27,641 bases of DNA. Source: a virus. The position numbers and the translations under genes are program-made. Location of the stretch: positions 1-27,641 of IMG/VR virus record IMGVR_UViG_3300033146_000708. The stretch is one strand, 5' to 3'. How positions within the stretch are numbered: the stretch's first letter is position 1; every line of letters starts with the position of its first letter. Below the pieces are notes generated by a model. It did not search any database. It worked only from the letters and a program-made list of their open reading frames with translations, and was not told the origin of the DNA. Shown here piece after piece: positions 10,762 through 27,570 of this stretch.

Positions 10762-11403
10762 TTACAAGCAAAATGATTTTGATGTTTCAACAAAATCAAT
10801 TTCTAATTTTTCCAATTCTTGAATATATTTTTTTAAAATTTTTTCATCACCAATACCTCTTGTTGAAGCTAAATTTATAATTACTCTAAAACCAGCTTTT
10901 TTTAAATCTTTAACACCTTCACCAAGACAATAATTTAATGCAAGACCACCAACAATGAAAGTATCAACACCTAATATTTTTGCCATTTCAATGACACCTG
11001 TTGATATATTTTTTTTTAAATCATGATATATTGGACTATATGGATGCATATCTTTTTCTACTCCTTTATATACTAAAAAATCATATTCAGATGGTTTTGG
11101 TAATCCATCAATCAATTCAAAACCATATGTACCAACAACACAATGCTGATTCCACCTAATATCTACATTTTCTTCATCTACCTTACTAAATTGTGGATAT
11201 TTTTTATTTGCTGTCCAATATCCATTTGATGGATGTGCATCTTTACTCATAAATCTATATTTGGTAAATTTGGCATTATTGTTTAATTCTTCAACAATAT
11301 TATGTCCATCTTCAACAGGCAATTCACCAGGACAATTTGGTGTAAAACCATTTTGCGAATCAATATCAAAACTAATAGTTTTATTTTTATCTATTTTTAT
11401 CAT
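10762..11403 (-). CDS. pncA: Nicotinamidase (isochorismatase-fold), PncA-like
   Basis: 213 residues, the normal length for PncA. It hydrolyses nicotinamide to nicotinate and ammonia, feeding the Preiss-Handler route to NAD+. Visible landmarks: catalytic Asp15 in D-S-Q-N-G-F, metal-site residues D55-x-H57 (SKDAHP) and H87 (WNQHCVVGTYG), catalytic Lys113 (VYKGVEKDMHP), and the nucleophile Cys159 in VGGLALNYCLGEGV. All elements of the D-K-C triad and the metal site are in place, so the enzyme looks active. It follows nadE and a 31-residue mini-ORF in the same operon, with a 3-base gap. Another isochorismatase-family amidase is possible, but the motifs and the nadE neighbour favour nicotinamidase. 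Confidence 0.9.
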   Translation of the reverse strand: MIKIDKNKTISFDIDSQNGFTPNCPGELPVEDGHNIVEELNNNAKFTKYRFMSKDAHPSNGYWTANKKYPQFSKVDEENVDIRWNQHCVVGTYGFELIDGLPKPSEYDFLVYKGVEKDMHPYSPIYHDLKKNISTGVIEMAKILGVDTFIVGGLALNYCLGEGVKDLKKAGFRVIINLASTRGIGDEKILKKYIQELEKLEIDFVETSKSFCL

Positions 11404-11406
11404 AAT

Positions 11407-11502
11407 TTAATATTTTATATAATTTTCTCTTTTTTCATTATATGGATTTTCTCTTTTAAATTGAGATTTCATATGTCGTTGAATAACTGGTGTATCTTTC
11501 AT
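11407..11502 (-). CDS. 31-residue mini-ORF between nadE and pncA
   Basis: The ATG (11500-11502) overlaps the nadE stop in an ATGA, and the TAA (11407-11409) is 3 bases from the pncA start. The peptide begins MKDTPVIQRHMKSQFKREN and ends in KRENYIKY. It is basic and hydrophilic, with no membrane segment. Spacing this tight on both sides suggests a translated linker gene rather than chance. It may be an independent peptide, or the remnant of a nadE C-terminal extension separated by a stop. No family recognised. Confidence 0.5.
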   Translation of the reverse strand: MKDTPVIQRHMKSQFKRENPYNEKRENYIKY

Positions 11503-12284
11503 TTCATATAATCTTGTCCAACTTTTTTCATACTCATTAATTCATCAATCATCGATAAATAATCAATTAAAATAGCATCAACTTCATCATATCCAGATCT
11601 TGTTGATGTATGTCTATTTCTCCAATCTGGTAAAATTTGATCTAAATCTGTTGATGATATACCAAGACCATCAGTAGCATCACCATTAATACAGGACATC
11701 AATGCTTCTTTTTCTGATGTGATTAATTCATTATTTGCTAACCATTCTGACATATCATAAACTTCTGTTTTCCAAAGTTCTTGGATTAATCCATAATCTC
11801 CAACATCACCATGTAATGTCCAAAATCCCAATAATAATTCTGTCATATTATCTGTAGATAAAACAAGACCATTAAATTTTGATGCTAAATTATATAAATA
11901 TATCATTCTCATTCGAGCTTTTATATTTCCCATTCTTATTTTATATGCTTTATTATCATCATTATTTGGTACATCATCATCCCAATCATCTAATATCATA
12001 AATTCTTGTGATAAATCAATTTCTTTAAAATCTGTACAAAATAATTCACCTATTGCTTTTGCTCTACTTTGTTCTTCAACACTATTTGTATCAATAGTAA
12101 TTGAACGACCAATCAATGGTATATCGAGTTCATCACAAACAGGTTTAACTAATACTGCTACTAATGCAGAATCAATTCCACCACTTATACCTAACACTAA
12201 TGATTTAAGATTAGCTTTTATAATATATTCTTTAATCAAAATTCTCAAATTTTCAATTGTTTCTTTATAATCCAATTTTTTCAT
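11499..12284 (-). CDS. nadE: NH3-dependent NAD+ synthetase
   Basis: 261 residues, close to bacterial NadE without a glutaminase domain. It converts nicotinate adenine dinucleotide to NAD+ using ATP and ammonia. The N-type ATP pyrophosphatase P-loop is S34-G-G-I-D-S39 (LGISGGIDSALVAVL). Further family landmarks are S-T-D-N-M-T-E-L-L-L-G followed by FWTLHGDVGDYGLI, and a later D-G-L-G-I-S-S-T-D-L-D-Q-I-L block. It is the first gene of the leftward operon, divergent from deoC across a 116-base AT-rich gap. With pncA it supplies the two ends of nicotinamide-to-NAD+ salvage; nicotinate phosphoribosyltransferase and the adenylyltransferase are not in this window and would have to come from elsewhere in the genome or from the host. 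Confidence 0.92.
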   Translation of the reverse strand: MKKLDYKETIENLRILIKEYIIKANLKSLVLGISGGIDSALVAVLVKPVCDELDIPLIGRSITIDTNSVEEQSRAKAIGELFCTDFKEIDLSQEFMILDDWDDDVPNNDDNKAYKIRMGNIKARMRMIYLYNLASKFNGLVLSTDNMTELLLGFWTLHGDVGDYGLIQELWKTEVYDMSEWLANNELITSEKEALMSCINGDATDGLGISSTDLDQILPDWRNRHTSTRSGYDEVDAILIDYLSMIDELMSMKKVGQDYMK

Positions 12285-12400: not shown

Positions 12401-13207
12401 ATGAAAAACATTTTTAATTACAAAAAATTCTTAAATGAAAAGAAGAATATAAATGAAAATCATGACAAAGTTTTTGAATATAATGATATAATAGATTATA
12501 CATTATTAGATAATAGTGTTGATGATAATGCAATTATTGAATTATGTGAAAAAGCTAAACGTTTTGAAACAAAATCTGTTTGTGTTATGCCAAAACATGT
12601 AAAAATTGCAAATGAACAATTAAAAGATTCATCTGTTTTAGTTTGTACTGTAATATCATTTCCTGAAGGGACATACTCATTAGAAGAAAAAGAAAATGAA
12701 ACGAATCAAGTTATTGCTAATGGTGCTGATGAAGTTGATATGGTTTTAAATTATCATTTATTAAAATCAGAATGGAAAGATAATCCAACTGATGAAAATA
12801 CTTTACCTATTTATAATGAATTAGTTGAAGAAGTAAAATCTTTAGTGAATATTTGTCATAATTCTACTAATAAGGATGGTGATCCTATCACATTAAAAGT
12901 TATTGTTGAATCTGGTTTATTGACTCTTGAACAAACAAGAACAACAACTGATATTTGCTTAGATGCTGGTGCTGATTATATTAAGACTTCAACAGGAATG
13001 GTTTCTGTTGGTGCTGAATTAGATAAAATAAAAGTAATGTCTGATACTATTAAACAAGCAAGTTCAAATATGAAAATTAAAGCATCTGGTGGAGTTAGAA
13101 CAATTGCTGATATAAAATCATATCTACCTTATGTTGATAGATTAGGAATGGGTTTTGGTAGTGTAGATAAATTAAATGGTTTAGATTCTAATTCCGAAGG
13201 TTATTAA
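12401..13207 (+). CDS. deoC: Deoxyribose-phosphate aldolase with a capsid-targeting-like N-terminus
   Basis: 268 residues. DeoC splits 2-deoxyribose-5-phosphate into acetaldehyde and glyceraldehyde-3-phosphate. Residues visible: D113 in the A-D-E-V-D-M-V strand, the Schiff-base lysine K195 in DAGADYIKTSTG, and the second lysine K227 in KASGGVRT, so the active site looks intact. The end (LGMGFGSVDKLNG) is a plausible variant of the phosphate-binding C-terminus. The first 13 residues, MKNIFNYKKFLNE, are not part of the aldolase fold and resemble the T4 internal-protein capsid targeting sequence, ending in L-N-E. First gene of the rightward enzyme operon; an endonuclease gene follows after 6 bases. 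Confidence 0.9.
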   Translation: MKNIFNYKKFLNEKKNINENHDKVFEYNDIIDYTLLDNSVDDNAIIELCEKAKRFETKSVCVMPKHVKIANEQLKDSSVLVCTVISFPEGTYSLEEKENETNQVIANGADEVDMVLNYHLLKSEWKDNPTDENTLPIYNELVEEVKSLVNICHNSTNKDGDPITLKVIVESGLLTLEQTRTTTDICLDAGADYIKTSTGMVSVGAELDKIKVMSDTIKQASSNMKIKASGGVRTIADIKSYLPYVDRLGMGFGSVDKLNGLDSNSEGY

Positions 13208-13213
13208 AAAATT

Positions 13214-14278
13214 ATGTTTATAGAAAAAGCAAATAAACTTCATAATTTAAAATATAATTATAGTTTAGTTAATTATATTAATAGTAAAACTAAAGTGAAA
13301 ATTATTTGTCCGATTCATGGTATTTTTGAACAAACACCAGAAAAACATTTGATTGGTCAAGGTTGTCCTAAATGTGCAAAAAATTATAAATTAAACACAT
13401 CACAATTTATAAAAAAAGTGAAAAAAATACATAAATCAAAATATGATTATTCTTTAGTTAATTATAAAAATATGAAAGAAAATATAAAAATAATATGTCT
13501 GTTTCATGGTGTTTTTGAGCAAACACCAAACAATCATTTAAATGGTAAAGGATGTCCAAAATGTGCAAAAAATAAAAAAATAACACAAAATTCATTTATA
13601 GAAAAAGCTAAAGAAAAACATGATGATAAGTATGACTATTCATTAGTTAATTATAAAAATAGTAAAACTAAAGTGAAAATTATTTGTCCGATTCATGGTA
13701 TTTTTGAACAAACACCAGACAATCATATTCATAAAAAATATGGATGTTCAAAATGTAATGGAAAATTTAAAAATACAAATGAATTTATAAACATTTCTGA
13801 AAAAAGTCATGATAAAAAATATAATTATAGTTTAGTTGATTATAAAAATGGTAAAACTAAAGTGAAAATTATTTGTCCGATTCATGGTGTTTTTGAACAA
13901 ACACCAGAAAAACATTTGATTGGTCAAGGTTGTCCTAAATGTAATAATAGTCATGGAGAAAATGAAATTGAAAAAATTTTAAATAATAAAAATATATTAT
14001 TTGAAACACAGAAAAAATTTAAAAATTGTAAAGATAAATATTATTTACCATTTGATTTTTATTTACCTGAATATAACCTTTGTATTGAATTTGATGGTAT
14101 TCAACATTTTAAACCTATTGATTATTTTGGTGGTGAAGAAAAATTTAAACTACAACAAAAACGAGATTCAATAAAAAATATATACTGTAAAGAAAATAAT
14201 ATTAATTTATTAAGAATAAAATATAATGAAAATATTAAAGAAAAAATAGAAACACTTAATAATTACATTAATGGATAA
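13214..14278 (+). CDS. Putative homing endonuclease: four DUF723-like modules plus PD-(D/E)XK nuclease
   Basis: 354 residues. Four tandem modules of about 60 residues cover residues 1-240. Each has the form K-x-H-x-x-K-Y-(D/N)-Y-S-L-V-(N/D)-Y, T/E-K/N-V/I-K-I-I-C-x-x-H-G-(I/V)-F-E-Q-T-P, then H...G-C-(P/S)-K-C. The C-x-x-H and C-x-x-C pairs look like zinc ligands of a ribbon-type DNA-binding unit. From about 245 a Vsr/DUF559-like nuclease follows: G-E-N-E-I helix, D281 in LPFDFYLPEY, E292-F-D294-G-x-Q-H, and a K-R-D...YC...LLRIKY end. Free-standing endonucleases of this kind spread by homing. It sits between deoC and the deoxyribosyltransferase gene and, unlike them, lacks the capsid-targeting-like start. 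Homing activity is inferred. Confidence 0.8.
   Translation: MFIEKANKLHNLKYNYSLVNYINSKTKVKIICPIHGIFEQTPEKHLIGQGCPKCAKNYKLNTSQFIKKVKKIHKSKYDYSLVNYKNMKENIKIICLFHGVFEQTPNNHLNGKGCPKCAKNKKITQNSFIEKAKEKHDDKYDYSLVNYKNSKTKVKIICPIHGIFEQTPDNHIHKKYGCSKCNGKFKNTNEFINISEKSHDKKYNYSLVDYKNGKTKVKIICPIHGVFEQTPEKHLIGQGCPKCNNSHGENEIEKILNNKNILFETQKKFKNCKDKYYLPFDFYLPEYNLCIEFDGIQHFKPIDYFGGEEKFKLQQKRDSIKNIYCKENNINLLRIKYNENIKEKIETLNNYING
13280..13942 (+). repeat. Intragenic DNA repeats in the endonuclease gene
   Basis: Module-encoding DNA is nearly identical between copies: 62 bases at 13280-13341 recur exactly at 13658-13719, and 13284-13375 recurs at 13851-13942 with one mismatch in 92. Such identity across three of four modules points to recent duplication or gene conversion. 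Confidence 0.9.
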
Positions 14279-14294: not shown

Positions 14295-15275
14295 ATGAAA
14301 AAATTAAAGAAATATACTGAATTTTTATTTGAAAAGAAAAATATAGAAAATAATGAAGATTTTCAATTATTTTTTGATAAAGTTATGACATTATCAAATT
14401 CTGATATAATGGAATTAAGAGACGAGATTCAAAAAATTGCAGATAATATGTCTGTGAATGAAAATATCTATAATCTTAAAAGAAAGTTTAATTCGTGGTT
14501 TGATGATAGATTATTCAAATTTTTAATTAATAGAAAAAAAAGTTTTTATTTAAATATTATTGAGAAACTTAATCTCTTTGATTTAGAAAATTTAGATGAT
14601 GTTATGAAAAATTTTCATTTAAAATCAATAGATGGACTATATTTAGCTGGTGGTATGGATGCTAGTGAAGATACTGGTGCTGGATGGAGAATTGAAGTTG
14701 AAGAAGAATTTGAATTCAATAATCCTGGTAAATATAGTAAAGATGTAGATGAAATTAAAGTTGGTGATAAAATGATTATGCCAGCTTATGTTGTTGATGG
14801 TATATTTTTAGATAAAGTTTTATCTGATACAAAAAACACTTTAAAATTATATGATAAACCAGTTTTATTTAATCCAGTAAGAAAGGAAGTTGATAGAAAT
14901 AAAGATGATAAATTTGATAATTCTATTGATACTATGAAAGATCCAAATTGGGATGCTGAAGAAAATTCAGAACCATTTGATTTTTTTCAAAAAACTTTTG
15001 CTGGATCAATTGAACCTGATGATGAACATTTATTAAGAATTGCAACAGCTACATTTTTAGGATATAATCCTGATGCAGGTGCAGGAACATATGGTGAATT
15101 GGAATTATTATCAATGATTAGAAAACCATTATTTGTTTGGTTGACTGGGGATTATAATAATGATATGGGGAAATTCAAATTATGGAATATACCACATATA
15201 TCAAAAATTGCAAGAAATAAAGAAGAGATGAAAATTTTAGTTAAAGCGATCAAAAATACAACACAAATAAAATAA
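14295..15275 (+). CDS. Nucleoside 2-deoxyribosyltransferase-like protein with capsid-targeting-like N-terminus
   Basis: 326 residues. The first 13, MKKLKKYTEFLFE, match the capsid-targeting-like pattern and end in L-F-E. A helical segment of about 100 residues follows. The catalytic part starts near residue 115 with L-Y-L-A-G-G-M-D, then T-G-A-G-W-R, V-L-F-N-P-V, and finally N-P-D-A-G-A-G-T-Y-G-E-L, matching the family's nucleophile-glutamate region (G-T-x-x-E-L), followed by KPLFVW. The fold family includes nucleoside deoxyribosyltransferases and deoxynucleoside-5'-monophosphate N-glycosidases (Rcl/DNPH1). The second activity would release deoxyribose-5-phosphate, the DeoC substrate, but which reaction applies cannot be read from the sequence. 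It lies between two endonuclease genes. Confidence 0.75.
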   Translation: MKKLKKYTEFLFEKKNIENNEDFQLFFDKVMTLSNSDIMELRDEIQKIADNMSVNENIYNLKRKFNSWFDDRLFKFLINRKKSFYLNIIEKLNLFDLENLDDVMKNFHLKSIDGLYLAGGMDASEDTGAGWRIEVEEEFEFNNPGKYSKDVDEIKVGDKMIMPAYVVDGIFLDKVLSDTKNTLKLYDKPVLFNPVRKEVDRNKDDKFDNSIDTMKDPNWDAEENSEPFDFFQKTFAGSIEPDDEHLLRIATATFLGYNPDAGAGTYGELELLSMIRKPLFVWLTGDYNNDMGKFKLWNIPHISKIARNKEEMKILVKAIKNTTQIK

Positions 15276-15278
15276 ATA

Positions 15279-16184
15279 ATGCCTAAAAAAATAAGTGTTG
15301 AAAAAATATTAGAAACATTTGATAATAAACATCATAGTAAATATGATTATTCATTATCAGTTATAAAAAATACACATTCTAATATAAAAATAATTTGTTC
15401 AAAGCATGGAATATTTGAACAACGTGTTTCAAATCATATGAAAGGAAACATTTGTCCTTATTGTTCAGGTAGATTGAATAATTTATCAACATTTAAAGAA
15501 AAATCAATAAAAAAACATTTACATAAATATGATTATTCATTGGTTAATTATATAAATAACACAACAAAAGTGAAAATAATTTGTTCAAAACATGGTGTTT
15601 TTGAACAAATGCCTTTAGTACATCTTAAAGGTGGTGGTTGTCCAAAATGTGGTGGAACAAAAAAATTAAATACAAATGATTTTATACTAATATCAAAAGA
15701 AATACATGGAGATAAATATGATTATTCATTAGCTGAATATAAGACGGCTAAAAACAAAGTGAAAATTGTTTGTCCAGAACATGGTATTTTTGAACAAATA
15801 CCAGACAATCATTTAAGACGAAAACAAGGGTGTCCAATATGTAAAGAAAGTAAAGGTGAAAAAGAAATAAGAGTTTTATTAGAAAGTAAAAAAATTAATT
15901 TTATTTCACAAAAACGATTTGAAAAATGTAAAAATAAATTACCATTACCTTTTGATTTTTATTTACCAGATTACAATATGTGTATTGAATTTGATGGTAA
16001 ACAACATTTCAAACCAGTTGAACGTTGGGGTGGTGAAGAAGGTTTAATGATAAGAAAAAAGAAAGATAAAATTAAAAATAATTTCTGTAAAGAAAATAAT
16101 ATTAAATTATTAAGAATAAAATATAATGATAATATAAAAAATAAAATAGAAGAAAATGAAAACATACAATCATTTTTTAAATGA
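15279..16184 (+). CDS. Putative homing endonuclease: three DUF723-like modules plus PD-(D/E)XK nuclease
   Basis: 301 residues. Three zinc-ribbon-like modules span residues 5-188, each with KYDYSL, I-(I/V)-C-x-x-H-G-(I/V)-F-E-Q and a C-P-x-C knuckle. The nuclease follows: G-E-K-E-I helix near 192, D226 in LPFDFYLPDY, E237-F-D-G-K-Q-H, and LLRIKY close to the end. The same architecture as the gene at 13214, but with one module fewer and diverged sequence, so it is a relative rather than a fresh copy. It starts 3 bases after the deoxyribosyltransferase-like gene and its last 29 bases overlap the start of the next gene, as expected for an insertion tolerated at a gene boundary. No capsid-targeting-like start. 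Confidence 0.8.
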   Translation: MPKKISVEKILETFDNKHHSKYDYSLSVIKNTHSNIKIICSKHGIFEQRVSNHMKGNICPYCSGRLNNLSTFKEKSIKKHLHKYDYSLVNYINNTTKVKIICSKHGVFEQMPLVHLKGGGCPKCGGTKKLNTNDFILISKEIHGDKYDYSLAEYKTAKNKVKIVCPEHGIFEQIPDNHLRRKQGCPICKESKGEKEIRVLLESKKINFISQKRFEKCKNKLPLPFDFYLPDYNMCIEFDGKQHFKPVERWGGEEGLMIRKKKDKIKNNFCKENNIKLLRIKYNDNIKNKIEENENIQSFFK

Positions 16185-16986
16185 ATTAGCTGAAAATAAA
16201 TTAAAATATGCTGCATATGATTGGGATGATAATATATTAAATATGCCAACAAAAATACATTTACAAAAAAAAGAGAATGATAAATTTATATCTGTTGATA
16301 TTTCAACAGATGAATTTGTTAATTATCGAAATAAAATATCACAAAATCCAAAAGAAGGTGAATATAGAATTTATGATAATGATATAGCAAAAACATATGC
16401 AAATTTTGGTGATAATGATTTATTTATTAAAGAAACTAAAGAAGGATTAGATAAAAAATCATATGGACCAGCTTTTTATAATTTTATTAATACCTTAATT
16501 AATGGTGAAATATTTGCTATTATAACTGCACGAAGTGTTAGTCCATTAACTTTAAAGAAAAGTGTGGAAATAATTATATATGATTACTTATCTGAATCAC
16601 AACACCATCAAATGTTAGAAAATTTAATGGATTATTCAGATTTATTTGGAACTAATCCAGATTCTTTGATTGAACATTATTTAGAAAAATGTGATTATTA
16701 TCCTGTTAATTCTAAAGAATTTATTTCACGACATGAAGGTAATGTGGATCCAGCTAATCCAGAAATTGGGAAAAAAATAGCATTAAATGAATTTTCAAAA
16801 AGAATAGAACAATATGGTTTACAAACGAATAGAAATGTTAAATTAGGTTTTAGTGATGATGATACAGTAAATATTAATGCAATTACTAAACATTTTAATG
16901 AAATTAATGATATATATAATATTAATTATTATGTTTTTGATACATCGAATAATGATAAAAATAATATTATTAAAACAAAAATATGA
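16156..16986 (+). CDS. HAD-superfamily phosphatase-like protein with capsid-targeting-like N-terminus
   Basis: 276 residues. The start MKTYNHFLNE is the closest in the window to the T4 capsid targeting sequence MKTYQEFIAE. HAD motif I is Y-D22-W-D24-D-N, motif II is the threonine in I-I-T-A-R-S, a possible motif III lysine lies in E-I-G-K-K-I-A, and motif IV is G-F-S-D-D-D. The cap region between them is large (about residues 40-200). Substrate unknown; given deoC and the deoxynucleotidase-like neighbour, a nucleotide or sugar phosphate is plausible. The ATG lies inside the end of the preceding endonuclease gene, and the stop overlaps the next start (ATGA). Confidence 0.75.
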   Translation: MKTYNHFLNELAENKLKYAAYDWDDNILNMPTKIHLQKKENDKFISVDISTDEFVNYRNKISQNPKEGEYRIYDNDIAKTYANFGDNDLFIKETKEGLDKKSYGPAFYNFINTLINGEIFAIITARSVSPLTLKKSVEIIIYDYLSESQHHQMLENLMDYSDLFGTNPDSLIEHYLEKCDYYPVNSKEFISRHEGNVDPANPEIGKKIALNEFSKRIEQYGLQTNRNVKLGFSDDDTVNINAITKHFNEINDIYNINYYVFDTSNNDKNNIIKTKI

Positions 16987-17801: not shown

Positions 17802-18851
17802 ATGAATGAAATAGGACATGAGTATGATTTTGATGATCAATTTTTTAGAATGGTCACAATATCATTAGCAAATATATTAAGTAAAAATATTAGATGGATT
17901 AATAAATTTGAACCAGAAAATGAAAATGAAACAGGATTTAAAAGAGTTTTTTTACCATTTTATACATCATTAACCGGTGAAGAACGATTTGTGTTTGATG
18001 CATTCATAGATGATATTGTTGATAAAAGAGTAAGTATGAATACTGATCAACTTCAAAGAGGAATGATTGAATTTAAAGGATTTACAACTAATACAGATCA
18101 ATTAGCAAATCCAAATCAATATTTATCAAAAAAAGTAAAAATAAATTCTACTATAAAAAAAATAATAAGTAAAGTCAAGGCTGTTCCAGTTACATTGAAT
18201 TTTGATATTCAGATACAATTAGCAACAGTAAATGAAATTGATAAAGTTAGTCAAAAACTATTAACAGTTTTTTATAATTATTTCTTTTTTAATTTTGATT
18301 ATTATGGATTAAAAATAGATGCATTTTTTCCATTACCAGATGACAAACAAATTGAAATACAAAGAGAATTAAATTTAGAAAATGATAGAAAGAAAAAAAT
18401 CACTTTTTCATTAGATGTAAATACATATTTTCCTATTTTTGATATCGATATCGATGATTTGATGATTTGTGATAATGATGATAGTATAAATTGGGATGAG
18501 TTAGATATACCAAGACCAACAATAGATTTTAATGAAAGTTTAAAAAAATTAAATGAAACTTATGGTCAAGTAGCATATTCTGGATCAATAGGTGGTTATG
18601 ATGAAGATGGTAATCCAAGTGTCACTGGTGAATATGATAAAAATGGAAATTATATAGGTAATGATGGAAAAACTATTGAAGGAAAGACACAAATCAAAAA
18701 AGTATATTGGTATAATATGTATCGTGAATTAGACAAATATAAATCAAATAATCAAGATGTAAATTATAATCCATCACAATGGAATAAAGAAGATTTCGAT
18801 GGTGTTGATCCTGGTGAAAGTTCTAGAAATAATGATTTAGATAATGAGTAA
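17802..18851 (+). CDS. Probable tail sheath stabiliser/completion protein (T4 gp15-like)
   Basis: 349 residues (T4 gp15 has 272). The N-terminus Y-D-F-D-D-Q-F-F-R-M-V-T-I-S-L-A-N-I-L matches the gp15 pattern (a tyrosine-aromatic start, an R-x-x-x-x-x-x-x-L-F/L helix, then a strand with I-R/K). The middle, VPVTLNFDIQIQLATVNEID...LLTVFYNYFF, followed by I-D-A-F-F-P-L-P and F-S-L-D-V-N-T-Y-F-P, fits the gp15 core: a strand, a helix counting tail contacts, and a terminal strand ending in a proline. The last 100 residues are an acidic, Gly/Asn-rich tail with repeats such as YDEDGNP and YDKNGNY. gp15 caps the contractile tail and contacts the sheath; the sheath gene lies downstream in this unit. 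Confidence 0.65.
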   Translation: MNEIGHEYDFDDQFFRMVTISLANILSKNIRWINKFEPENENETGFKRVFLPFYTSLTGEERFVFDAFIDDIVDKRVSMNTDQLQRGMIEFKGFTTNTDQLANPNQYLSKKVKINSTIKKIISKVKAVPVTLNFDIQIQLATVNEIDKVSQKLLTVFYNYFFFNFDYYGLKIDAFFPLPDDKQIEIQRELNLENDRKKKITFSLDVNTYFPIFDIDIDDLMICDNDDSINWDELDIPRPTIDFNESLKKLNETYGQVAYSGSIGGYDEDGNPSVTGEYDKNGNYIGNDGKTIEGKTQIKKVYWYNMYRELDKYKSNNQDVNYNPSQWNKEDFDGVDPGESSRNNDLDNE

Positions 18852-19203
18852 ACAAAAAATTTTATATTATATTGAGACTACTACATTTGAAACAATGCAG
18901 AGTTTAGCAATATTTATTTATGATGCTACTTTAAAAAATAAAAATTTTGATTTTGAAAAATATTTTTATAGTATTTATGAAAAAACTATAACAGAAAGTT
19001 TAAAATTTTTAAATTATAAAGATATAAATTCATATAAACATATTTTTTATAAACATTTAAATAATGTATATAATTTAAGTAAGAAAAATGCTGAAATATT
19101 TGAAGTTCTTTATATTTCAAATAGAATTTCTTTATTTAATTATTGGAAAGAAAATAAAAAACTATTTATTTCAGAAATAATTGAAACTTATATATCAGAA
19201 TAA
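18844..19203 (+). CDS. Small unknown helical protein
   Basis: 119 residues, overlapping the end of the gp15-like gene by 8 bases. Rich in aromatic residues and lysine and mostly helical by appearance (MQSLAIFIYDATLKNKN, YFYSIYEKTI, FEVLYISNRISLFNYWKENK). No signal peptide and no motif I recognise. In T4 the gene after 15 is the small terminase, but I see no helix-turn-helix or other evidence for that here. Confidence 0.6.
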   Translation: MSKQKILYYIETTTFETMQSLAIFIYDATLKNKNFDFEKYFYSIYEKTITESLKFLNYKDINSYKHIFYKHLNNVYNLSKKNAEIFEVLYISNRISLFNYWKENKKLFISEIIETYISE

Positions 19204-19259: not shown

Positions 19260-20438
19260 TTGTGCAGAACAGAAAAAGGATATTTATATCAATTTATACC
19301 AAATGAATTTAAATATCTAACATTATCAATCACAGTTAAATATAATGGTTTAAATCTTAAAACTGCATATCTAATAAATATAATACATGAATTAATATTA
19401 AAATATTATTTCACTAATGATATTTATCATAATCTTTGGTCTGTAATATTAAAGAAAAAATATGGAAAACATTATTCACATTATATTAAATATTTAGTTG
19501 ATTATGATTTTATGTTATTAGTTTCTTCTTATTATGCTGGAAAAAAAGCAAAAACATATAAATTAAATATTACTAATTTAGATATTTTTAGAACAAAAAT
19601 ATCTGATAAAATAATTTTAAAAAAACATAAGAAAGATTACATTTTTAAATCTTTTACTTCAACTCAAGATTCTCCAATTGATATGTCTCTAAGAAAACAA
19701 TTAATAGATGATTTATATCATATAAATATTGATTATAATAAAGCAAAAAAATGGTTAGAATTACAAAAAACATCTAAACAAATCGAATTAAATAAATATT
19801 TTAAAAATCTTAATTCAATTGATGGTATCAACACAGAACATATTTTCTTTAAATTTGATGCTTATGGTCGTTTACATACTAATTTTACTGTTCTTAAAAA
19901 ATATATTCGTTCTAATTATTTATCGATTGATGGTGATGAATTAAGTGAAATCGATTTACCAAATTCTCAACCTTATTTTTTTGGTGTATATTTGAAAAAC
20001 GAAATTGGTGAGAAAAATTTCAATGATGAAATTAAAAATTTTATTGATATAGTTAAAAATGGATTAATATATGATCATTTATTTGAAACATATCCAGATA
20101 TACTGACCAGTCGTAATGATGCAAAAGTGATGATGTATAAGGTCTTATTTGGTAAGAATGTAGATAAGAGAATAGAAAATAAATTATTTAAAAAATTATA
20201 TCCAACTGTTTATTCATATATCAAAGAGTATAAATATTTAAGTGATGATTATAAGTCTTTATCACATCAATTACAAATAATTGAATCTGATTTTATTTAT
20301 AATAAATGTGTGAAAACTATTAAATCAAAATTTCCATTGATTAAATTATTTACTATACATGATTCTATTGTTTTTCCTATAAAATATAAAGAAGAGGTTC
20401 AATTAGTTTTTAATAATTATTTAAAAGATTTATTATAA
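19260..20438 (+). CDS. Polymerase A / single-subunit RNA polymerase-like palm protein, non-ATG or truncated start
   Basis: Frame opens after a TAA at 19251; the only near start is TTG (19260) and the first in-frame ATG comes about 84 residues later, so the start is uncertain. Of 392 residues, the last 200 carry palm-domain landmarks: D-A-Y-G-R-L-H-T-N-F-T near 200, motif A E-I-D232-L-P-N-S-Q-P-Y-F, motif B R285-N-D-A-K289-x7-F297-G298 (the R-x3-K-x7-Y/F-G spacing of Pol I and T7 RNA polymerase), an L-Q-I-I-E-S helix, and motif C T-I-H367-D368-S-I-V. The H-D-S form of motif C is as in T7 RNA polymerase, while Pol I has H-D-E. No 3'-5' exonuclease motifs are visible and the chain is far shorter than either enzyme. 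Whether it makes DNA or RNA cannot be told. Confidence 0.6.
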   Translation: MCRTEKGYLYQFIPNEFKYLTLSITVKYNGLNLKTAYLINIIHELILKYYFTNDIYHNLWSVILKKKYGKHYSHYIKYLVDYDFMLLVSSYYAGKKAKTYKLNITNLDIFRTKISDKIILKKHKKDYIFKSFTSTQDSPIDMSLRKQLIDDLYHINIDYNKAKKWLELQKTSKQIELNKYFKNLNSIDGINTEHIFFKFDAYGRLHTNFTVLKKYIRSNYLSIDGDELSEIDLPNSQPYFFGVYLKNEIGEKNFNDEIKNFIDIVKNGLIYDHLFETYPDILTSRNDAKVMMYKVLFGKNVDKRIENKLFKKLYPTVYSYIKEYKYLSDDYKSLSHQLQIIESDFIYNKCVKTIKSKFPLIKLFTIHDSIVFPIKYKEEVQLVFNNYLKDLL

Positions 20439-20699: not shown

Positions 20700-23600
20700 A
20701 TGCCAATACAAAACAAAGATTTGGGAAAATATAACAGACCAGGTATATTTATCAACGAAATTGATAATTCTATTATTGAATTACCACAACAAGATATTTT
20801 AATAAATTTAGTACCAGGTTTCTCAAAAAAAGGACCAGTAAATAAACCTATTTATGTTACAAACAAAGCAGATTTTATAGCAATATTTGGAGATATTGAT
20901 AGAGGATTAGAAAGAAAAAGTTCTTTTTTTCATAGAACATGTATAAAAATGTTAGAATCAGGACCAATTTATGCTCTTAATTTATTATTAACTGATGATG
21001 AAAGAGATAAAGCAAACTGGAAAACATTATCATGTGCATCAAATTATAAAAATGATATAACAAAAAAAATACCTTATTCTAGACTTTTTAATCGTCAAGA
21101 TTTTTGGGAAAGAGATAATGAATCATTTTTAGATTATGTAAATGATCCAATAGTGGATTATGATAGAATTTTACATTTATCAAATTTAGGTAATAAAGTC
21201 ACAACAACTTTTATTTTTAAATCTAAAACATCTGGTTTTGATATTTCAGCAGAAGATTGGTATGGTGGTCCAACAAAAGTACCTGTTTATATTAATCCAA
21301 AAGATTGGATTTCAGATTATATAGTTTCAGTTATTATTTTAGATGGTGATTGGACTAATTATGATGTTTTATCAGAAGATCAAACTTGGGGACAATATTT
21401 CTCAACAACTGGACTAAATAAAGCAACTATACAAGATTTTGTTAATGAACCTAATGTAAATACTTTAGGTTTTTATGATGCATCATTAATACCTTATTTT
21501 AAAGATATTACAGGTAGAGATATGTATATTAAATCATTAATTAATAATGAAACAGATAAAACTGGTCTTTTCTGTGCTTATTTTGAAGATGAAATGTTAG
21601 ATGCAGATTTTCCAATCGGAAAAGTAGATTTAATAGGTGATGGATTAGTTGGTGAATCTCAATCAAGTATTGATTTTTTATCATATAAAGAAGATATATT
21701 TGAAGTTTTAACTTATGAAACAACAACATTAAATTCTTGTGGAAATGTATTTGGTAATTATTCAACTGAATTAGAAAATGATTTTATTTCTGGTAGAACT
21801 GCTGAATGTACTAATCATTATGTTCATGGTATGACATTTGGTAATGGTAGTCTTTTAACTGCTTCTACATTAATAGAATTGGATCATACTGGACAAGCAA
21901 CAGGTAAATCTTGGTTTTTTATGAATTCTTCTGTTAATTTTACATCAGCACCACAACAATTATTAGTTATTGGTGATGCTGTAGTATTTAATAAAGCATT
22001 TGATACAATTGAAGCAAATAAAATATATTATGTTGAAGATGTTTCTGATGGTGGTAGAATGATTAGTGTTTCTGATACTCATGATGGTAATCCTATTGGA
22101 TTTAGTATGGCATCATCTTTATCAGATATGTATATTCAAAGAGTAGAATTTAATTTTAATTATACATTACCATATTTTGTTTTAGATAATACAAAATACA
22201 CAATTAATTCTGGACAAACTGAATTTACATTCAAAGGTTTAGAATTCGTTGGTACACCTTCAGTTAATTTAGAAAGATATGATGTATTGTATTTAAGTAA
22301 AGGAAATAATGCAGAAGTAAATATTTTGACTGGTACTCAATCAACAACTGGTGCAGAAAAACCAAATTTTATGCTAGATTATAATGATAATCTAATATTA
22401 GGTTATGTTCATTTGACATTAAGTTCTGGAAATACACCAGCAACAGGTGCAACAGATTATGTTATTAATGCTGATTATACACCAATAACGGTTGATACAA
22501 ATGGTTACGTTCCATTAACAGATATTATAATTACAAGTGGTTCTACTGGTGATAATTATATTAAAATATCATTTGGTAATACATCTGGATCAACTGATTA
22601 TACTAATTATAACCAAATTAGATATAGAAATGCATTTGATGAAATTAATAATAAATTAGATGATGGTAAAGGAGTGATAATAAATCATAATGATGCATCT
22701 AAATATAAATTAGATGATGGTAAAGGAGTGATAATAAATCATAATGATGCATCTAAATTTTATATTACTCAATCAAATATGAGTGGTCATGATTATAATA
22801 ATTCGATTAATGGTTTAATAACTATTAATGTAGGTTCTTTAGATCCAACAGATTTTTATAATACTGATACATATAAATGGTTAGTTTACTATTTAGATAA
22901 TGAATTTGTTTTAAATGAAAATAATTGTGATAGAGCATTTACATCAGCATTATATGTTGATTCATTAGTAGGTTCTGGACAAACATCAACTACAAACGCT
23001 GGAGTTATTGGTAGATATGCAAATATTTATATGGATTACTATAATGGAATTTTAAACAATGGTGATTATGCTTATATGAATAATGACACTGGTTCAACTA
23101 CTAAATTTATGATTAAAGCATGGATACAAGATGATAATATTCTTTATATTGATTTTATGAGTGAAGATGGTGTTTCACCATTCCCTATTGATATTATAGA
23201 TTATGATAATGAATTAATTTTCTATTCTACTGATTCTAATTATAAACAAACTGTTGAAATTGAAAGTTTTGATATATCTAAACCAATTACAAGCATTTAT
23301 GAAATAAATGTAGATGCATCTAGATATTCAGAATTAGTGAAAGGAGATTTCTTAGAAGCATATTATGATGAAACTGATTTAGAAATTGGTCAAGATCCAA
23401 GAAAATTAACTAGAATTGTGAAAGTTCTTGGACATCCAACAATTCCTAATTTAAAAGTTATTAATTGTGATGCACCAATTAAAATTAATTCTATCAATAG
23501 AATTGGTGGTGGATATGATTATCAAACAACAACATATCCAACTATTGAAAAATATGTATCAGATTATAAAGGAATTAAATTGATACCATTTACTATAAGT

Positions 23601-24605
23601 AATGAATCTATACCAAATGGTTCTGAAACCAGACAATCTGGTATTTTAGATTTATTATCACCAACTACAAATTTAGGTAAAGGTTTGATAAATAAAAATA
23701 AGATTTCTTGGAGATATTTAATTGATAGTTTTGGTCTTGGTTTAACATCAAAATCTAAACAACAATATAGTGATTTACTTGGTAAAAAATTAAATTCATT
23801 AGGATTTATTTCCGCACCTTCAGTAAAAACATTAAAACATTCAACAAATCCTAGTTTTATTAATGATGATGTAACATTAAACACAGAATACTTAAAAACT
23901 GGTGGTGATGAAACAAAAAATCCATCATTCTTATATTCATTCGCAGAAGGAATTGGAAGATCAACTATTGGTTATTTCTTCCCATATGTTACTATTGATG
24001 ATTTAGGAGTTCCAAAAGATGTTCCACCAGCAGCTTGGGCTGCATCAACTTATATGAAGAAATTCTTAGCATCTTCTTCAGCAATTCAACCTTGGACTAT
24101 TGCAGCAGGTATTACTAATGGTAGGGTAACTGATATTTCACAAGTTGAAATGGATTTTAATGATGATCAATTAGCAGATTTATATTCAATGGGATTAAAT
24201 CCTATTGTTAAAAAGAAAAATGCTGGTTTCTGTATTAATTCTGAATCAAGTGCACAAGTTTTTCCTTATTCATCTCTTTCAATGATTCATTCAAGAGAAG
24301 TATTAATTGAATTGGAAAACACATTATATGATATGTTACTTAGATATCAATGGAGATTCAATACAGGTGCTATTCGTGCTGAAATTAAATATAAAGCTGA
24401 TAAAATTTGTACAGATATTCAAAATAGAGAAGGTCTTTATGACTTTAAAAATGTTATTGACGAAACTAATAATACTAACTATATTATTGATTTACAAATG
24501 GGTGTTTTAGATACATTTATAGAAATAATTAAAGGAATGGGTATAATAGTAAATAACATCACAATCTTGAAAAAAGGTGATATACAATCAGGTGGCTTTC
24601 AATAA
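20700..24605 (+). CDS. Tail sheath protein (T4 gp18-like), unusually long
   Basis: 1301 residues, about twice T4 gp18 (659). The N-terminus (N-R-P-G-I-F-I-N-E-I-D, then I-N-L-V-P-G-F-S-K-K-G-P and the V-T-N-K-A-D-F-I-A-I-F-G block) is the standard start of contractile sheath proteins. The C-terminal 300 residues carry the conserved core: G-R-S-T-I-G-Y-F-F-P-Y-V, P-P-A-A-W-A-A, Q-P-W-T-I-A-A-G-I, L-Y-S-M-G-L-N-P-I, a long L-Y-D-M-L-L-R-Y-Q-W-R-F helix and a final V-N-N-I-T-I-L strand. Residues about 110-1000 include large beta-rich insertions, probably decorating the tail surface. An exact 54-bp tandem duplication repeats an 18-residue unit at about residues 651-686. It has its own 5' gap with a late-promoter candidate and ends at a hairpin terminator. 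Confidence 0.92.
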   Translation: MPIQNKDLGKYNRPGIFINEIDNSIIELPQQDILINLVPGFSKKGPVNKPIYVTNKADFIAIFGDIDRGLERKSSFFHRTCIKMLESGPIYALNLLLTDDERDKANWKTLSCASNYKNDITKKIPYSRLFNRQDFWERDNESFLDYVNDPIVDYDRILHLSNLGNKVTTTFIFKSKTSGFDISAEDWYGGPTKVPVYINPKDWISDYIVSVIILDGDWTNYDVLSEDQTWGQYFSTTGLNKATIQDFVNEPNVNTLGFYDASLIPYFKDITGRDMYIKSLINNETDKTGLFCAYFEDEMLDADFPIGKVDLIGDGLVGESQSSIDFLSYKEDIFEVLTYETTTLNSCGNVFGNYSTELENDFISGRTAECTNHYVHGMTFGNGSLLTASTLIELDHTGQATGKSWFFMNSSVNFTSAPQQLLVIGDAVVFNKAFDTIEANKIYYVEDVSDGGRMISVSDTHDGNPIGFSMASSLSDMYIQRVEFNFNYTLPYFVLDNTKYTINSGQTEFTFKGLEFVGTPSVNLERYDVLYLSKGNNAEVNILTGTQSTTGAEKPNFMLDYNDNLILGYVHLTLSSGNTPATGATDYVINADYTPITVDTNGYVPLTDIIITSGSTGDNYIKISFGNTSGSTDYTNYNQIRYRNAFDEINNKLDDGKGVIINHNDASKYKLDDGKGVIINHNDASKFYITQSNMSGHDYNNSINGLITINVGSLDPTDFYNTDTYKWLVYYLDNEFVLNENNCDRAFTSALYVDSLVGSGQTSTTNAGVIGRYANIYMDYYNGILNNGDYAYMNNDTGSTTKFMIKAWIQDDNILYIDFMSEDGVSPFPIDIIDYDNELIFYSTDSNYKQTVEIESFDISKPITSIYEINVDASRYSELVKGDFLEAYYDETDLEIGQDPRKLTRIVKVLGHPTIPNLKVINCDAPIKINSINRIGGGYDYQTTTYPTIEKYVSDYKGIKLIPFTISNESIPNGSETRQSGILDLLSPTTNLGKGLINKNKISWRYLIDSFGLGLTSKSKQQYSDLLGKKLNSLGFISAPSVKTLKHSTNPSFINDDVTLNTEYLKTGGDETKNPSFLYSFAEGIGRSTIGYFFPYVTIDDLGVPKDVPPAAWAASTYMKKFLASSSAIQPWTIAAGITNGRVTDISQVEMDFNDDQLADLYSMGLNPIVKKKNAGFCINSESSAQVFPYSSLSMIHSREVLIELENTLYDMLLRYQWRFNTGAIRAEIKYKADKICTDIQNREGLYDFKNVIDETNNTNYIIDLQMGVLDTFIEIIKGMGIIVNNITILKKGDIQSGGFQ
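22651..22758 (+). repeat. Exact 54-bp tandem duplication in the sheath gene
   Basis: Bases 22651-22704 are repeated exactly at 22705-22758, in frame, doubling the unit KLDDGKGVIINHNDASKY (second copy ends in F after the junction). Zero divergence indicates a very recent event. Confidence 0.97.
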
Positions 24606-24627: not shown

Positions 24628-24657
24628 AAAAAGTTGATTATTAGTAATCAACTTTTT
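24628..24657. terminator. Bidirectional hairpin terminator between convergent genes
   Basis: A 13-bp stem (AAAAAGTTGATTA with TAATCAACTTTTT) and a 4-base TTAG loop. A-rich on the left and T-rich on the right, so it can terminate both the sheath transcript and the minus-strand endonuclease operon, whose last stop codon (24641-24643) lies in the loop. Confidence 0.88.
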
Positions 24658-25528
24658 CTTTTATTCTAATAAATTTACATTTTAGAAAAGATTTAATTTC
24701 ATTTTCACGAATTAAATCTTTTTCTTTTTGTTTTTTTGATTCATGATACTTTTCATCATATTCATATACAATATTATTTTCAATATCATAACCATCAATC
24801 CAGTAACCAAGTTCTTTGATATAATATTCTCCACCATTCATTGCATGTTGAATATGAACATTTTTCTTTTCTGATATTTTATCAAAGATTTTACATGCTT
24901 TTGGATTAAAATTTGGTGTTATTTGATATCCATTTTTTAAATTATTATTAATTTTTTTTAATATTAATATTCTTTTCTTAATATTACCACATTTTGGACA
25001 ACCTTGACCTAGAATGTGTTTTTCTGGAGTTTGTTTAAAAACACCATGTAATGAACAAATGATTTCAATTTTTGTTTTCATTGTAGAATAATCTTCAGGA
25101 TATTTATATTTGTTATTATGAACTTTATTTGCTTTTTCTATAAATTCATCTGTCATGATATTCTTTCCAACACATTTAGGACATCTATTTTGTTGTAAGT
25201 GGTTATTCGGCATTTGAAAGAATTCACCATGTTCTGGACAAATTATCTTTATTTTTGTTTTACTATTTATGTAAGTATCAGGATATTTATATTTATTATT
25301 ATGAATTTTATTTGCTTTTTCTATAAATTCTTCAGTAGTCATCTTTACACCACCATTACATATTGGACAACCTTGTCCAATAAAATGTTTGTTCGGTGTT
25401 TGAAAGAATTCACCATGTTCTGGACAAATTATCTTTATTTTTGTCTTAGTATTTATGTAAGTATCAGGATATTTATATTTATTATTATGAATTTTATTTG
25501 CTTTTTCTATAAATTCATCTGTTGTCAT
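24641..25528 (-). CDS. Putative endonuclease: three DUF723-like modules plus a variant nuclease domain
   Basis: 295 residues. Three modules (about 1-62, 63-124, 125-180) read F-I-E-K-A-N-K-(I/V)-H-N-N-K-Y-K-Y-P, I-(K/E)-I-I-C-x-x-H-G-(E/V)-F-(F/K)-Q-(T/M)-P and G-C-P-x-C or R-C-P-K-C. They are closer to each other than to those of the plus-strand genes. The C-terminal domain differs from the LPFDFYLP type: G-Y-W-I-D-G-Y-D, then V-Y-E-Y-D-E-K-Y-H, K-x-K-D-L-I-R and C-K-F-I-R-I-K-E, a PD-(D/E)XK-like order of Asp, Glu and Lys. Last gene of the coupled minus-strand row; its ATG overlaps the previous stop (ATGA). Probably a homing-type endonuclease, by domain content. Confidence 0.75.
   Translation of the reverse strand: MTTDEFIEKANKIHNNKYKYPDTYINTKTKIKIICPEHGEFFQTPNKHFIGQGCPICNGGVKMTTEEFIEKANKIHNNKYKYPDTYINSKTKIKIICPEHGEFFQMPNNHLQQNRCPKCVGKNIMTDEFIEKANKVHNNKYKYPEDYSTMKTKIEIICSLHGVFKQTPEKHILGQGCPKCGNIKKRILILKKINNNLKNGYQITPNFNPKACKIFDKISEKKNVHIQHAMNGGEYYIKELGYWIDGYDIENNIVYEYDEKYHESKKQKEKDLIRENEIKSFLKCKFIRIKEKVDY
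25213..25516 (-). repeat. Near-identical module DNA, 186-bp offset
   Basis: Bases 25213-25330 recur at 25399-25516 with two mismatches in 118, an offset of exactly 62 codons. A recent module duplication or conversion inside the endonuclease gene. Confidence 0.9.
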
Positions 25529-26424
25529 ATTTTTAATATATTTTCTATTTCATTAATAACATCTAATATATCATAATCTATATTAAACCATTCAGTATAA
25601 CCACCATGTTTTATTGGATGATTTATTTTATATTTTTTAAAATGATTATGAACTTCAATTTCTTTTAAACCACTATTTTCAAATATTTTACATATCTCTA
25701 AATTTTTATTTAAATCATTATTTAATTTTTTAAATCGTTTGTTTATATTTAATGTTATACCAATTTTGTATATTTTAAATTTTTTATCTCTTATTAAATA
25801 CAATTTTTTATCTTTAAAATTAATATTTTTTAAATTAGCACATCTATAACAACCTTTGCCTTGTAAATGTGAATCTGGTCGTTGTTTAAAATCACCATGT
25901 ATTGGACAAGTAATAATTAATGGTGTTTTATTGTTTACATAATCTGCTTTCAGATATGAATATTTATTATTATGAATATTTTTTGCATTATTTATAAAAA
26001 CATCGATTGTTGATGTTATTTTCAATACTGTTTTTTCTTTAATATTTGTATTTTTCATGGGATTATCAACACCATATTTGTTGATGAAAAATTCTTTTTG
26101 TTTGTTTTTAGATTCAATAGTTTTTGCATAATTTGAAACTCCATATTTTTCGTAACATGTCATCTCAGATTTTATTTTTGAACATTTTTTACATGTATAA
26201 AAATTATATCTTTTTACATTTCTATTATAATTATAATATGTGGTTTCTAATTCTAAATCACAAATATCACATTTAACAATAATAATATTTTTTGCTGTAT
26301 TTGGTAAATATTTTACATCAATTTTATATTCTTCACCAACAACTAATTTTGTGTTAAGAATTTTTTCTAATCGTTTTTTATTTGATGAATTAATTGTAAC
26401 ATAAACCTCATTTGTCAAGATCAT
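25525..26424 (-). CDS. Putative homing endonuclease: N-terminal DNA-binding repeats, one DUF723-like module, GIY-YIG-like nuclease
   Basis: 299 residues. Residues about 50-85 hold a two-CxxC zinc unit (C-D-I-C and C-K-K-C). Then come two copies of a K-Y-G-V-(S/D)-N-(Y/P)-x-K/M motif (E-K-Y-G-V-S-N-Y-A-K and N-K-Y-G-V-D-N-P-M-K), a NUMOD-like element common in homing enzymes. One DUF723-like module follows (H-N-N-K-Y-S-Y, I-I-T-C-P-I-H-G-D-F-K-Q, G-C-Y-R-C). The C-terminal 100 residues are of the GIY-YIG/T5orf172 type: L-Y-L-I-R-D, Y-K-I-G-I-T-L-N-I-N-K-R-F-K-K-L, E-V-H-N-H-F and G-G-Y-T-E-W-F. So a different nuclease has been joined to the same targeting module. Overlaps the upstream gene by 17 bases. 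Confidence 0.78.
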   Translation of the reverse strand: MILTNEVYVTINSSNKKRLEKILNTKLVVGEEYKIDVKYLPNTAKNIIIVKCDICDLELETTYYNYNRNVKRYNFYTCKKCSKIKSEMTCYEKYGVSNYAKTIESKNKQKEFFINKYGVDNPMKNTNIKEKTVLKITSTIDVFINNAKNIHNNKYSYLKADYVNNKTPLIITCPIHGDFKQRPDSHLQGKGCYRCANLKNINFKDKKLYLIRDKKFKIYKIGITLNINKRFKKLNNDLNKNLEICKIFENSGLKEIEVHNHFKKYKINHPIKHGGYTEWFNIDYDILDVINEIENILKI

Positions 26425-26853: not shown

Positions 26854-27570
26854 TTATATATATTTGTTCAATATTTGTTTTATTTTGAATTCTATTTTTT
26901 CATCATAATTAATTCGTTCTAAATCGATAAATTTTTCTTTACAAAACTTTGTTTTAATTTTATCATGATTTTTTATTAATTTGAATTTTTTATCACCACC
27001 AAAATATTTAATTGGTTTATAATGTTGTATACCATCATATTCAATACATAAATTATATTCTGATAAATAAAAATCAAATGGTAATGTATATTTATCTCGA
27101 CAATCATTAAATCTTTTTTCTCTTATGTATGATATTTTATTTTTTTCTAAATAATATATTATCTCATTTTCACCTTTACTTGTTTTACAAATAGGACATC
27201 CTTGTAAATTATTTATATGATCTGTTGGTCTCTGTTCAAACACACCATGTTTTGAACATATTATTTTTACTTTTGTTTTACTATTTATATAATTTACTAA
27301 TGAATAATCATATTTGTCTCTGTGTATCTTTTTTGCTTTTTTTGTAAAAGTTTTTCTCGTATCTTTTTTTAATTCTATTGCACAATGTTTACATCCTTTA
27401 GATTTATTAATATGTTCTGTCATTGATTGATAAAATATACCATGTTTAGAACATTTTATCATTACTTTTTTATGCATATTTGTGTACTCAACTAAAGAAT
27501 AATCATATTTATCTCCATGTATATTTTTTGCTTTTTCTATTATTTGACTTAAAGTGTATTTTCTAGACAT
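26854..27570 (-). CDS. Putative homing endonuclease: two DUF723-like modules plus PD-(D/E)XK nuclease
   Basis: 238 residues, the shortest of the series. Two modules (residues 5-65 and 72-130) with KYDYSLVEY/KYDYSLVNY, K-C-S-K-H-G-I-F-Y-Q / I-C-S-K-H-G-V-F-E-Q and G-C-K-H-C / G-C-P-I-C. The nuclease has a G-E-N-E-I helix near 133, D166 in LPFDFYLSEY, E177-Y-D179-G-I-Q-H-Y, G-G-D-K-K-F, a K-x-x-D-K-I-K-T-K-F-C helix and a final strand. It closely resembles the enzymes at 13214 and 15279. The ATG overlaps the stop of the upstream partial gene (ATGTCTAG). Confidence 0.8.
   Translation of the reverse strand: MSRKYTLSQIIEKAKNIHGDKYDYSLVEYTNMHKKVMIKCSKHGIFYQSMTEHINKSKGCKHCAIELKKDTRKTFTKKAKKIHRDKYDYSLVNYINSKTKVKIICSKHGVFEQRPTDHINNLQGCPICKTSKGENEIIYYLEKNKISYIREKRFNDCRDKYTLPFDFYLSEYNLCIEYDGIQHYKPIKYFGGDKKFKLIKNHDKIKTKFCKEKFIDLERINYDEKIEFKIKQILNKYI

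Follow-up and report, generated by a model that had tools for sequence, protein, structure and literature searches.

The window analysed here, 27,641 nucleotides of DNA from a viral sequence record, carries between positions 19260 and 20438 a gene whose product almost certainly has a catalytic core of the Pol A type. Conserved residues and the predicted structure point to a conserved minimal polymerase that is very probably active, and the protein belongs to a family that has no Pfam, PHROG or NCBIfam entry. The explanation that we favor, with chances that we put at about even, is that of a primase-polymerase of the TV-Pol type, or an accessory DNA polymerase, guided by its own winged helix.

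Gene organization and predicted fold

The gene is a single open frame on the plus strand, 392 codons long, and its first codon is TTG. Its parts are as follows.

19260..20438, + strand: minimal A-family polymerase gene (392 aa, TTG start, pI 9.3, 47 kDa)
19299..19610, + strand: N-terminal winged-helix domain, residues ~14-117 (AlphaFold model of residues 1-134)
19611..19832, + strand: linker and short helical thumb-like region, residues 118-191 (secondary structure of the model)
19857..19871, + strand: hairpin D200-x2-G203-R204, the DX2GR/TX2GR motif (R204 in 73/73)
19953..19973, + strand: motif A, D232-L-P-N235-S236-Q237-P238, with the catalytic Asp and the invariant NSQP (conserved in 51/51 and 73/73)
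20112..20159, + strand: motif B, or fingers helix O, R285-x3-K289-x3-Y293-x3-F297-G298-x-N300 (aligns with R-x3-K-x3-F-x3-Y-G of Pol I)
20352..20366, + strand: motif C, T365-I-H367-D368-S369, with the second catalytic Asp (homologue alignment)

Motifs A, B and C had been picked out in an earlier note made from the sequence, and they are indeed present at the places and with the spacing described there, the full motif A string being EID232LPNSQP. The same note had taken the missing ATG as a sign either of TTG initiation or of a lost N-terminus. The first of these was borne out. TTG also occupies the start position in the nearest relative (L002/L010; 73% identity), while ATG is found at the same position in L011, L012 and L013, whose proteins begin with MCR like that of the window; more distant homologues start with GTG or ATG nearby. 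Since the homologues have TTG or ATG at the same place and an in-frame stop is found a short way before the TTG, the N-terminus has not been lost. Judged by alignment of the homologues, the true start is the TTG and the N-terminus is complete, with its winged helix in place.

Scans of the protein against Pfam, PHROGs, NCBIfam and PADLOC yielded no meaningful match, and sequence and profile searches of the PDB gave chance matches only (CBP bromodomain), so that a fold search was needed. The AlphaFold model (pLDDT 92.6, pTM 0.87) consists of a winged helix at the N-terminus followed by palm and fingers of the A-family type; it contains no exonuclease domain, and its thumb is made of a few helices (142-152, 159-171 and 177-191). 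The top PDB structural matches, over residues ~121-392, were exclusively A-family DNA polymerases with Z scores of 12.9-13.9 (VIA-align; human Pol theta, 13.9; T7 DNA polymerase, 13.2; Klenow, 12.9). The best Foldseek matches were to the apicoplast, Taq and mycobacterial Pol I enzymes, with mitochondrial and T7 RNA polymerases far lower. A BFVD entry named "Putative DNA polymerase I" is 39% identical to the protein (TM 0.9). A palm and fingers of the Pol I type, two catalytic Asp, R-x3-K and the hairpin Arg, the features of the A-family superfamily, are all found. The assignment to the Pol A/single-subunit RNA polymerase superfamily made in the earlier note is upheld by fold, profile and conserved motifs together, and the structure prediction and comparison that it had proposed as a check revealed a palm, with A-family DNA polymerases ranking at the top.

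In hhalign comparisons, the family profile matched that of Pol I and T7 DNA polymerase with a P of 3.2e-5 over 193 columns; 20 column-shuffled profiles compared with Pol I as a control all gave P values of at least 0.36. The match to four proteins of the divPolA2 family was stronger (P 5.7e-13), with the GR hairpin and motifs A, B and C in register. For Ma-LMM01 gp030, a probable TV-Pol represented by a single sequence and picked by its position beside transposases, the match was not significant (P 0.05). By predicted fold and by sequence profile, the protein is nearer to DNA polymerase I than to T7 RNA polymerase, and the particular kinship with the latter that had been suggested for it finds no support. 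These results bear on the main rival explanation, which comes next after the primase-polymerase or accessory polymerase and which we consider rather unlikely. According to this rival, the protein would be a single-subunit-type phage RNA polymerase, reduced to palm and fingers, and would serve to transcribe one class of the phage's genes, with the winged helix recognizing promoters. The profile match to three T7-type single-subunit RNA polymerases is nil (P 0.21) and that to N4 RNAP2 reaches a P of 0.005 only; T7 RNA polymerase lies far below the DNA polymerases in the fold ranking, and its promoter-recognition parts are absent from the window protein.

When modelled alone (residues 1-134), the winged helix was predicted with a pLDDT of 88. 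Its nearest folds, all weak matches, were the N-terminal domains of plasmid RepA_N initiators (Z 6.9) and the winged helices of ORC1/Cdc6 (Z ~6); being below Z 8, these matches mean "winged helix" only and not kinship. The domain is basic and, to go by the model, probably grips DNA.

Conservation and distribution of the family

Alignment of 51 phage proteins showed residues D200, G203, R204, D232, N235, S236, Q237, P238, K289, F297, G298, H367, D368 and S369 to be invariant, and position 285 to be R or K in all but one (72/73 over 73 sequences). With phage and cellular proteins taken together (n=73), the string D-[IL]-x-NSQP, K289, D368 and R204 are each present in 73/73, and F297 is found in 57/57 phage members. 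D200-x2-GR and HDS are fixed in the 51 phage proteins and vary in the cellular ones. Such invariance indicates that the motifs are not due to chance; their conservation in homologues, which had been named as a possible test, extends to all three (key residues 51/51 and 73/73). Comparison with the nearest relative (L010) gave a dN of 0.18 and a dS of 0.91, a ratio of about 0.19, which at the level of sequence shows purifying selection on the gene. That the protein is a catalytically dead relic serving as a DNA-binding or structural protein might be suggested by the truncated architecture and by the tail sheath neighbor in the window (see below); it is scarcely credible given that the two catalytic Asp, as well as the Lys of the fingers and the Arg of the hairpin, never vary (73/73).

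Full-length homologues were found by tblastn in phage genomes of 735, 642, 636 and 635 kb, along with a partial match in a 595-kb phage. The four largest complete genomes in the huge-phage paper measure 634, 636, 642 and 735 kb, and the largest genomes belong to the Mahaphage clade, predicted to replicate in Bacteroidetes (PMC7162821). Each of the five megaphages searched, the four largest complete phage genomes included, carries a single copy of the gene. A pattern scan of IMG/VR returned at least 106 relatives, and the gene is conserved in about a hundred huge-phage contigs. GTDB genomes contributed 17 relatives, mostly from Bacteroidota, Ignavibacteriota/Kapaibacteria and Verrucomicrobiota, with one from a Planctomycete. 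In the tree the phage proteins form one group (98/73), and the protein of the 595-kb phage stands apart, among the cellular ones. The relative in this phage (LR756511.1; L125:13921-15207) overlaps by four bases a second polymerase ORF (15204-16367), which encodes a small A-family polymerase of 428 aa (DNA_pol_A, E 1e-20). The two minimal Pol A genes lie in tandem, and a Pol III alpha subunit is encoded elsewhere in the genome.

The sugar gate and related polymerases

In DNA polymerases of the Pol A type the main sugar gate is Glu710 of motif A, so that a Phe at the position of Pol I Tyr766 (Tyr639 of T7 RNA polymerase) is in itself no proof of a relaxed sugar choice. The earlier note had pointed to this Phe as relaxing the choice between rNTPs and dNTPs. 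The residue is there, invariant in all phage members, but it cannot carry the argument alone, the more so as Glu710 is also changed, by position to Gln. Across A-family polymerases, E710 and Y766 are said to be universal and to form a nucleotide-sensing pair that is hydrogen-bonded in the closed state; in simulations, Y766F was much like the wild type (PMC4882331), and thus the Phe alone says little on sugar choice. By alignment, the pair is replaced in the window family by Gln/Phe, namely Q237 at D+5 (73/73) and F297 (57/57 phages); the placement of Q237 on the Glu comes from the divPolA2 alignment anchored on the catalytic Asp, the Pol I hhalign being one column off at motif A. Like the E710/Y766 pair, the HDE form of motif C and the 3'-5' exonuclease domain, both classical Pol I features, are absent. 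This is a large family in which both "universal" gate positions are changed (by alignment) while the catalytic core is otherwise invariant.

As far as sequence motifs go, DX2GR, HDS and the loss of the E710/Y766 sugar-gate pair are RNA polymerase-like or unusual. DX2GR is typical of T7-like RNA polymerases, TX2GR of N4 vRNAP and Pol I (PMC4496689). With Q/F at the E710/Y766 positions and HDS instead of HDE in motif C, a preference for dNTPs is not secure; set against the Pol I-like profile and fold, the RNA polymerase-type motifs and the changed gate mean that the product could be either DNA or RNA. The single-subunit RNA polymerase would account for DX2GR, for the HDS motif C and for the lack of a Glu at motif A D+5 (E710 of Pol I). 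N4 RNAP2, moreover, splits off a palm/fingers subunit of ~400 aa (PMC4496689), gp16 of N4 RNAPII, comparable to the window protein, and an RNA polymerase function has been put forward as a possibility for divPolA2, the nearest phage relative (PMC11348598). A search of the five megaphages for RNA polymerase beta-type domains came back empty, whereas control genomes did match; a PF00940 search for a T7-type enzyme in the megaphages was uninformative, as the controls gave no match. On the other hand, motif A is unlike that of either T7 RNA polymerase or N4 RNAPII, promoter domains of the T7 type are missing, and the Y639F change in T7 RNA polymerase makes for a looser choice rather than RNA specificity.

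A further, unlikely proposal is that the Gln-Phe pair allows the enzyme to accept ribo- as well as deoxynucleotides and to begin chains de novo, the winged helix choosing the sites. The protein would then represent a new class of minimal polymerase, a one-protein initiator-primase (or a promoter-guided RNA polymerase) outside the DnaG and AEP families. Strand starting was proposed for TV-Pols in 2008, and in the cited literature only the Bacillota PolA-SSB has been tested among PolA-type enzymes. The present family makes it testable whether a bare Pol A core with a DNA-binding domain can start strands, and with which sugar preference.

The nearest described phage family is divPolA2, which occurs in barbaviruses, ICP1 and related phages (Yutin et al. 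2024, PMC11348598). Its members, too, are stand-alone palm/fingers proteins (~430 aa) without an exonuclease, with an N-terminal domain of their own, and coexist with a regular PolB. They differ in motif A, the reference being D-F-K-A-F-E, with Glu at D+5, as against D-x-x-N-S-Q in the window family; their N-terminal domain has no detectable match to the window family, the alignment covers the catalytic core only, and tblastn between the two families gave no match at E 1. The authors considered divPolA2 to be a repair DNA polymerase or an RNA polymerase, leaving both possible (PMC11348598). In Vibrio phage ICP1, a cultivated phage that carries an enzyme of this type, the gene (L142, MW794157.1 57804-59108) is annotated merely as hypothetical.

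TV-Pols, minimal relatives of Pol A found in mobile elements and viruses, have been proposed to be primase-polymerases (Iyer et al. 2008, PMC2579912). Compared by their described features (PMC2579912), TV-Pols, at 400-600 aa, resemble the window family in size, in having a short thumb, a hairpin Arg, two Asp in the palm and RxxxK in the fingers, and in lacking a nuclease. Both also have members in Bacteroidetes, Planctomycetes, Verrucomicrobia and phages, and the cellular relatives of the window gene share with TV-Pols the proximity of integrase, resolvase, KilA-C or transposase genes. The window family differs in its winged-helix N-terminal domain, in its huge-phage setting and in that no D5 helicase partner was seen. 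The protein probably belongs with the TV-Pol/divPolA2 group of stripped-down Pol I relatives. A member of the TV-Pol group, CcPol of SCCmec, extends primers and, together with the OB-fold protein MP, primes with dNTPs (PMC7581432, PMC10061031). The CcPol-MP and PolA-SSB primases share with the window protein the truncated A-family architecture, the association with mobile elements and the catalytic Asp pair. CcPol, in contrast, keeps E710 and F762 and needs its OB-fold partner; no MP-like partner was recognized beside the window family, whose neighbors differ between clades and in family searches show no such known domain. Relative to DNA polymerase I and T7 DNA polymerase (palm/fingers Z 12.9-13.2), the TGR, R-x3-K-x7-[YF]-G and HD motifs align; the window protein differs by the lack of a 3'-5' exonuclease, the tiny thumb, Q/F at the gate, and HDS for HDE.

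Genomic surroundings and possible role

The immediate neighbors of the gene in the window are the following.

17802..18851, + strand: upstream neighbor, 349 aa, no family match (kept in L002/L010, 61% identity)
18844..19203, + strand: upstream neighbor, 119 aa, no family match (gene pair kept in L002/L010, 46% identity)
20700..24605, + strand: downstream tail sheath gene (PHROG 34521, E 4e-85)

The placement within a tail gene unit, noted previously, is correct for the window and for its close relatives L011-L015; as a conserved feature it fails, the sheath adjacency being absent from the other clades. In the window's clade a homing endonuclease gene often separates polymerase and sheath genes. 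The idea of a virion or tail protein, based on sheath adjacency, was dropped because this adjacency is confined to one clade. Elsewhere the gene follows that of a ~440-aa protein at 36 loci and precedes that of a ~179-aa protein at 39 loci. These unannotated proteins (L035:4349-5701 and L035:7350-7892, respectively), possible partners of the polymerase, flank it in dozens of contigs from huge phages; the ~440-aa protein has no family match and looks ligase-like by eye.

In four of the five megaphages the polymerase gene is located 10-20 kb away from that of the DnaB helicase, within a replication region that also holds a split PolB, a PHROG 2488 helicase and genes which, judged by eye, resemble thymidylate synthase or ribonucleotide reductase. 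The five genomes encode DnaB (5/5), a DnaG-type primase (5/5; missed when the DNAG_N model is used alone), PolB (4/5) and Pol III (1/5). Although the four largest complete phage genomes all carry it alongside a complete PolB replisome, the family is unlisted in Pfam, PHROGs and NCBIfam. The possibility that the polymerase substitutes for a missing primase was dropped in view of the DnaG-type primase in all five megaphages. The presence of that enzyme also argues against the primase reading more generally, as a second primase is not needed.

A replication complement of PolB, helicase and primase would suit a repair, gap-filling or damage-tolerant DNA polymerase, limited to primer extension and accepting odd or modified nucleotides through its altered gate. 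This reading fits the lack of an exonuclease, the short thumb and the variable position of the gene between clades, as described for divPolA2 (PMC11348598). It is nonetheless distinctly unlikely: gap-filling enzymes do not usually carry a fused winged helix, and maintenance of the gene across a whole large phage clade implies a role that is more than dispensable.

Cellular and distant relatives of the gene lie close to tyrosine integrases, an IS200-type transposase, or a resolvase and a KilA-C protein, the integrase or resolvase neighborhoods being those of distant members in Bacteroidota. These are contexts described for TV-Pols (PMC2579912) and they speak for the TV-Pol-type reading. The integrases and resolvases, together with the abundance of homing endonucleases in the window, could also suggest a mobile-element replication gene that found its way into phages and persists there as a selfish passenger. 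This we regard as very improbable, since the phage clade looks vertical, each of the four largest complete genomes having a single copy, no integrase was recognized beside the gene in the phage clade, and the low dN/dS (see above) also speaks against it. Neither a D5 helicase nor an integrase/resolvase or transposase was seen beside the phage genes examined. For the favored primase-polymerase or accessory polymerase, the winged helix would bring the polymerase to a DNA site. There, D232 and D368 would hold the pair of catalytic metals, while the helix of the fingers (K289, Y293, F297) would close on the incoming nucleotide, starting or extending a short strand. This strand might then be used by the phage's own PolB replication machinery.

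Five ORFs in the window resemble mobile endonucleases (13214-14278, 15279-16184, 24641-25528, 25525-26424 and 26854-27570). Four of them contain repeated treble-clef-like modules and are mutually similar, the remaining one being T5orf172/GIY-YIG-like; their relatives lie between polymerase and sheath genes in related phages. Amid the tail genes, at 10762-11403, 11499-12284 and 12401-13207, lies a putative small cluster for NAD and nucleoside metabolism, in which NAD synthase is adjoined by ORFs resembling a nicotinamidase-type hydrolase and a deoxyribose-phosphate aldolase, the NAD synthase alone having a Pfam basis. Finally, the 1001-aa protein encoded at 5369-8374 is rich in repeated W-[YF]-x-G-x-[WF]-x-[NDS]-G modules and is possibly a structural or fibre protein.
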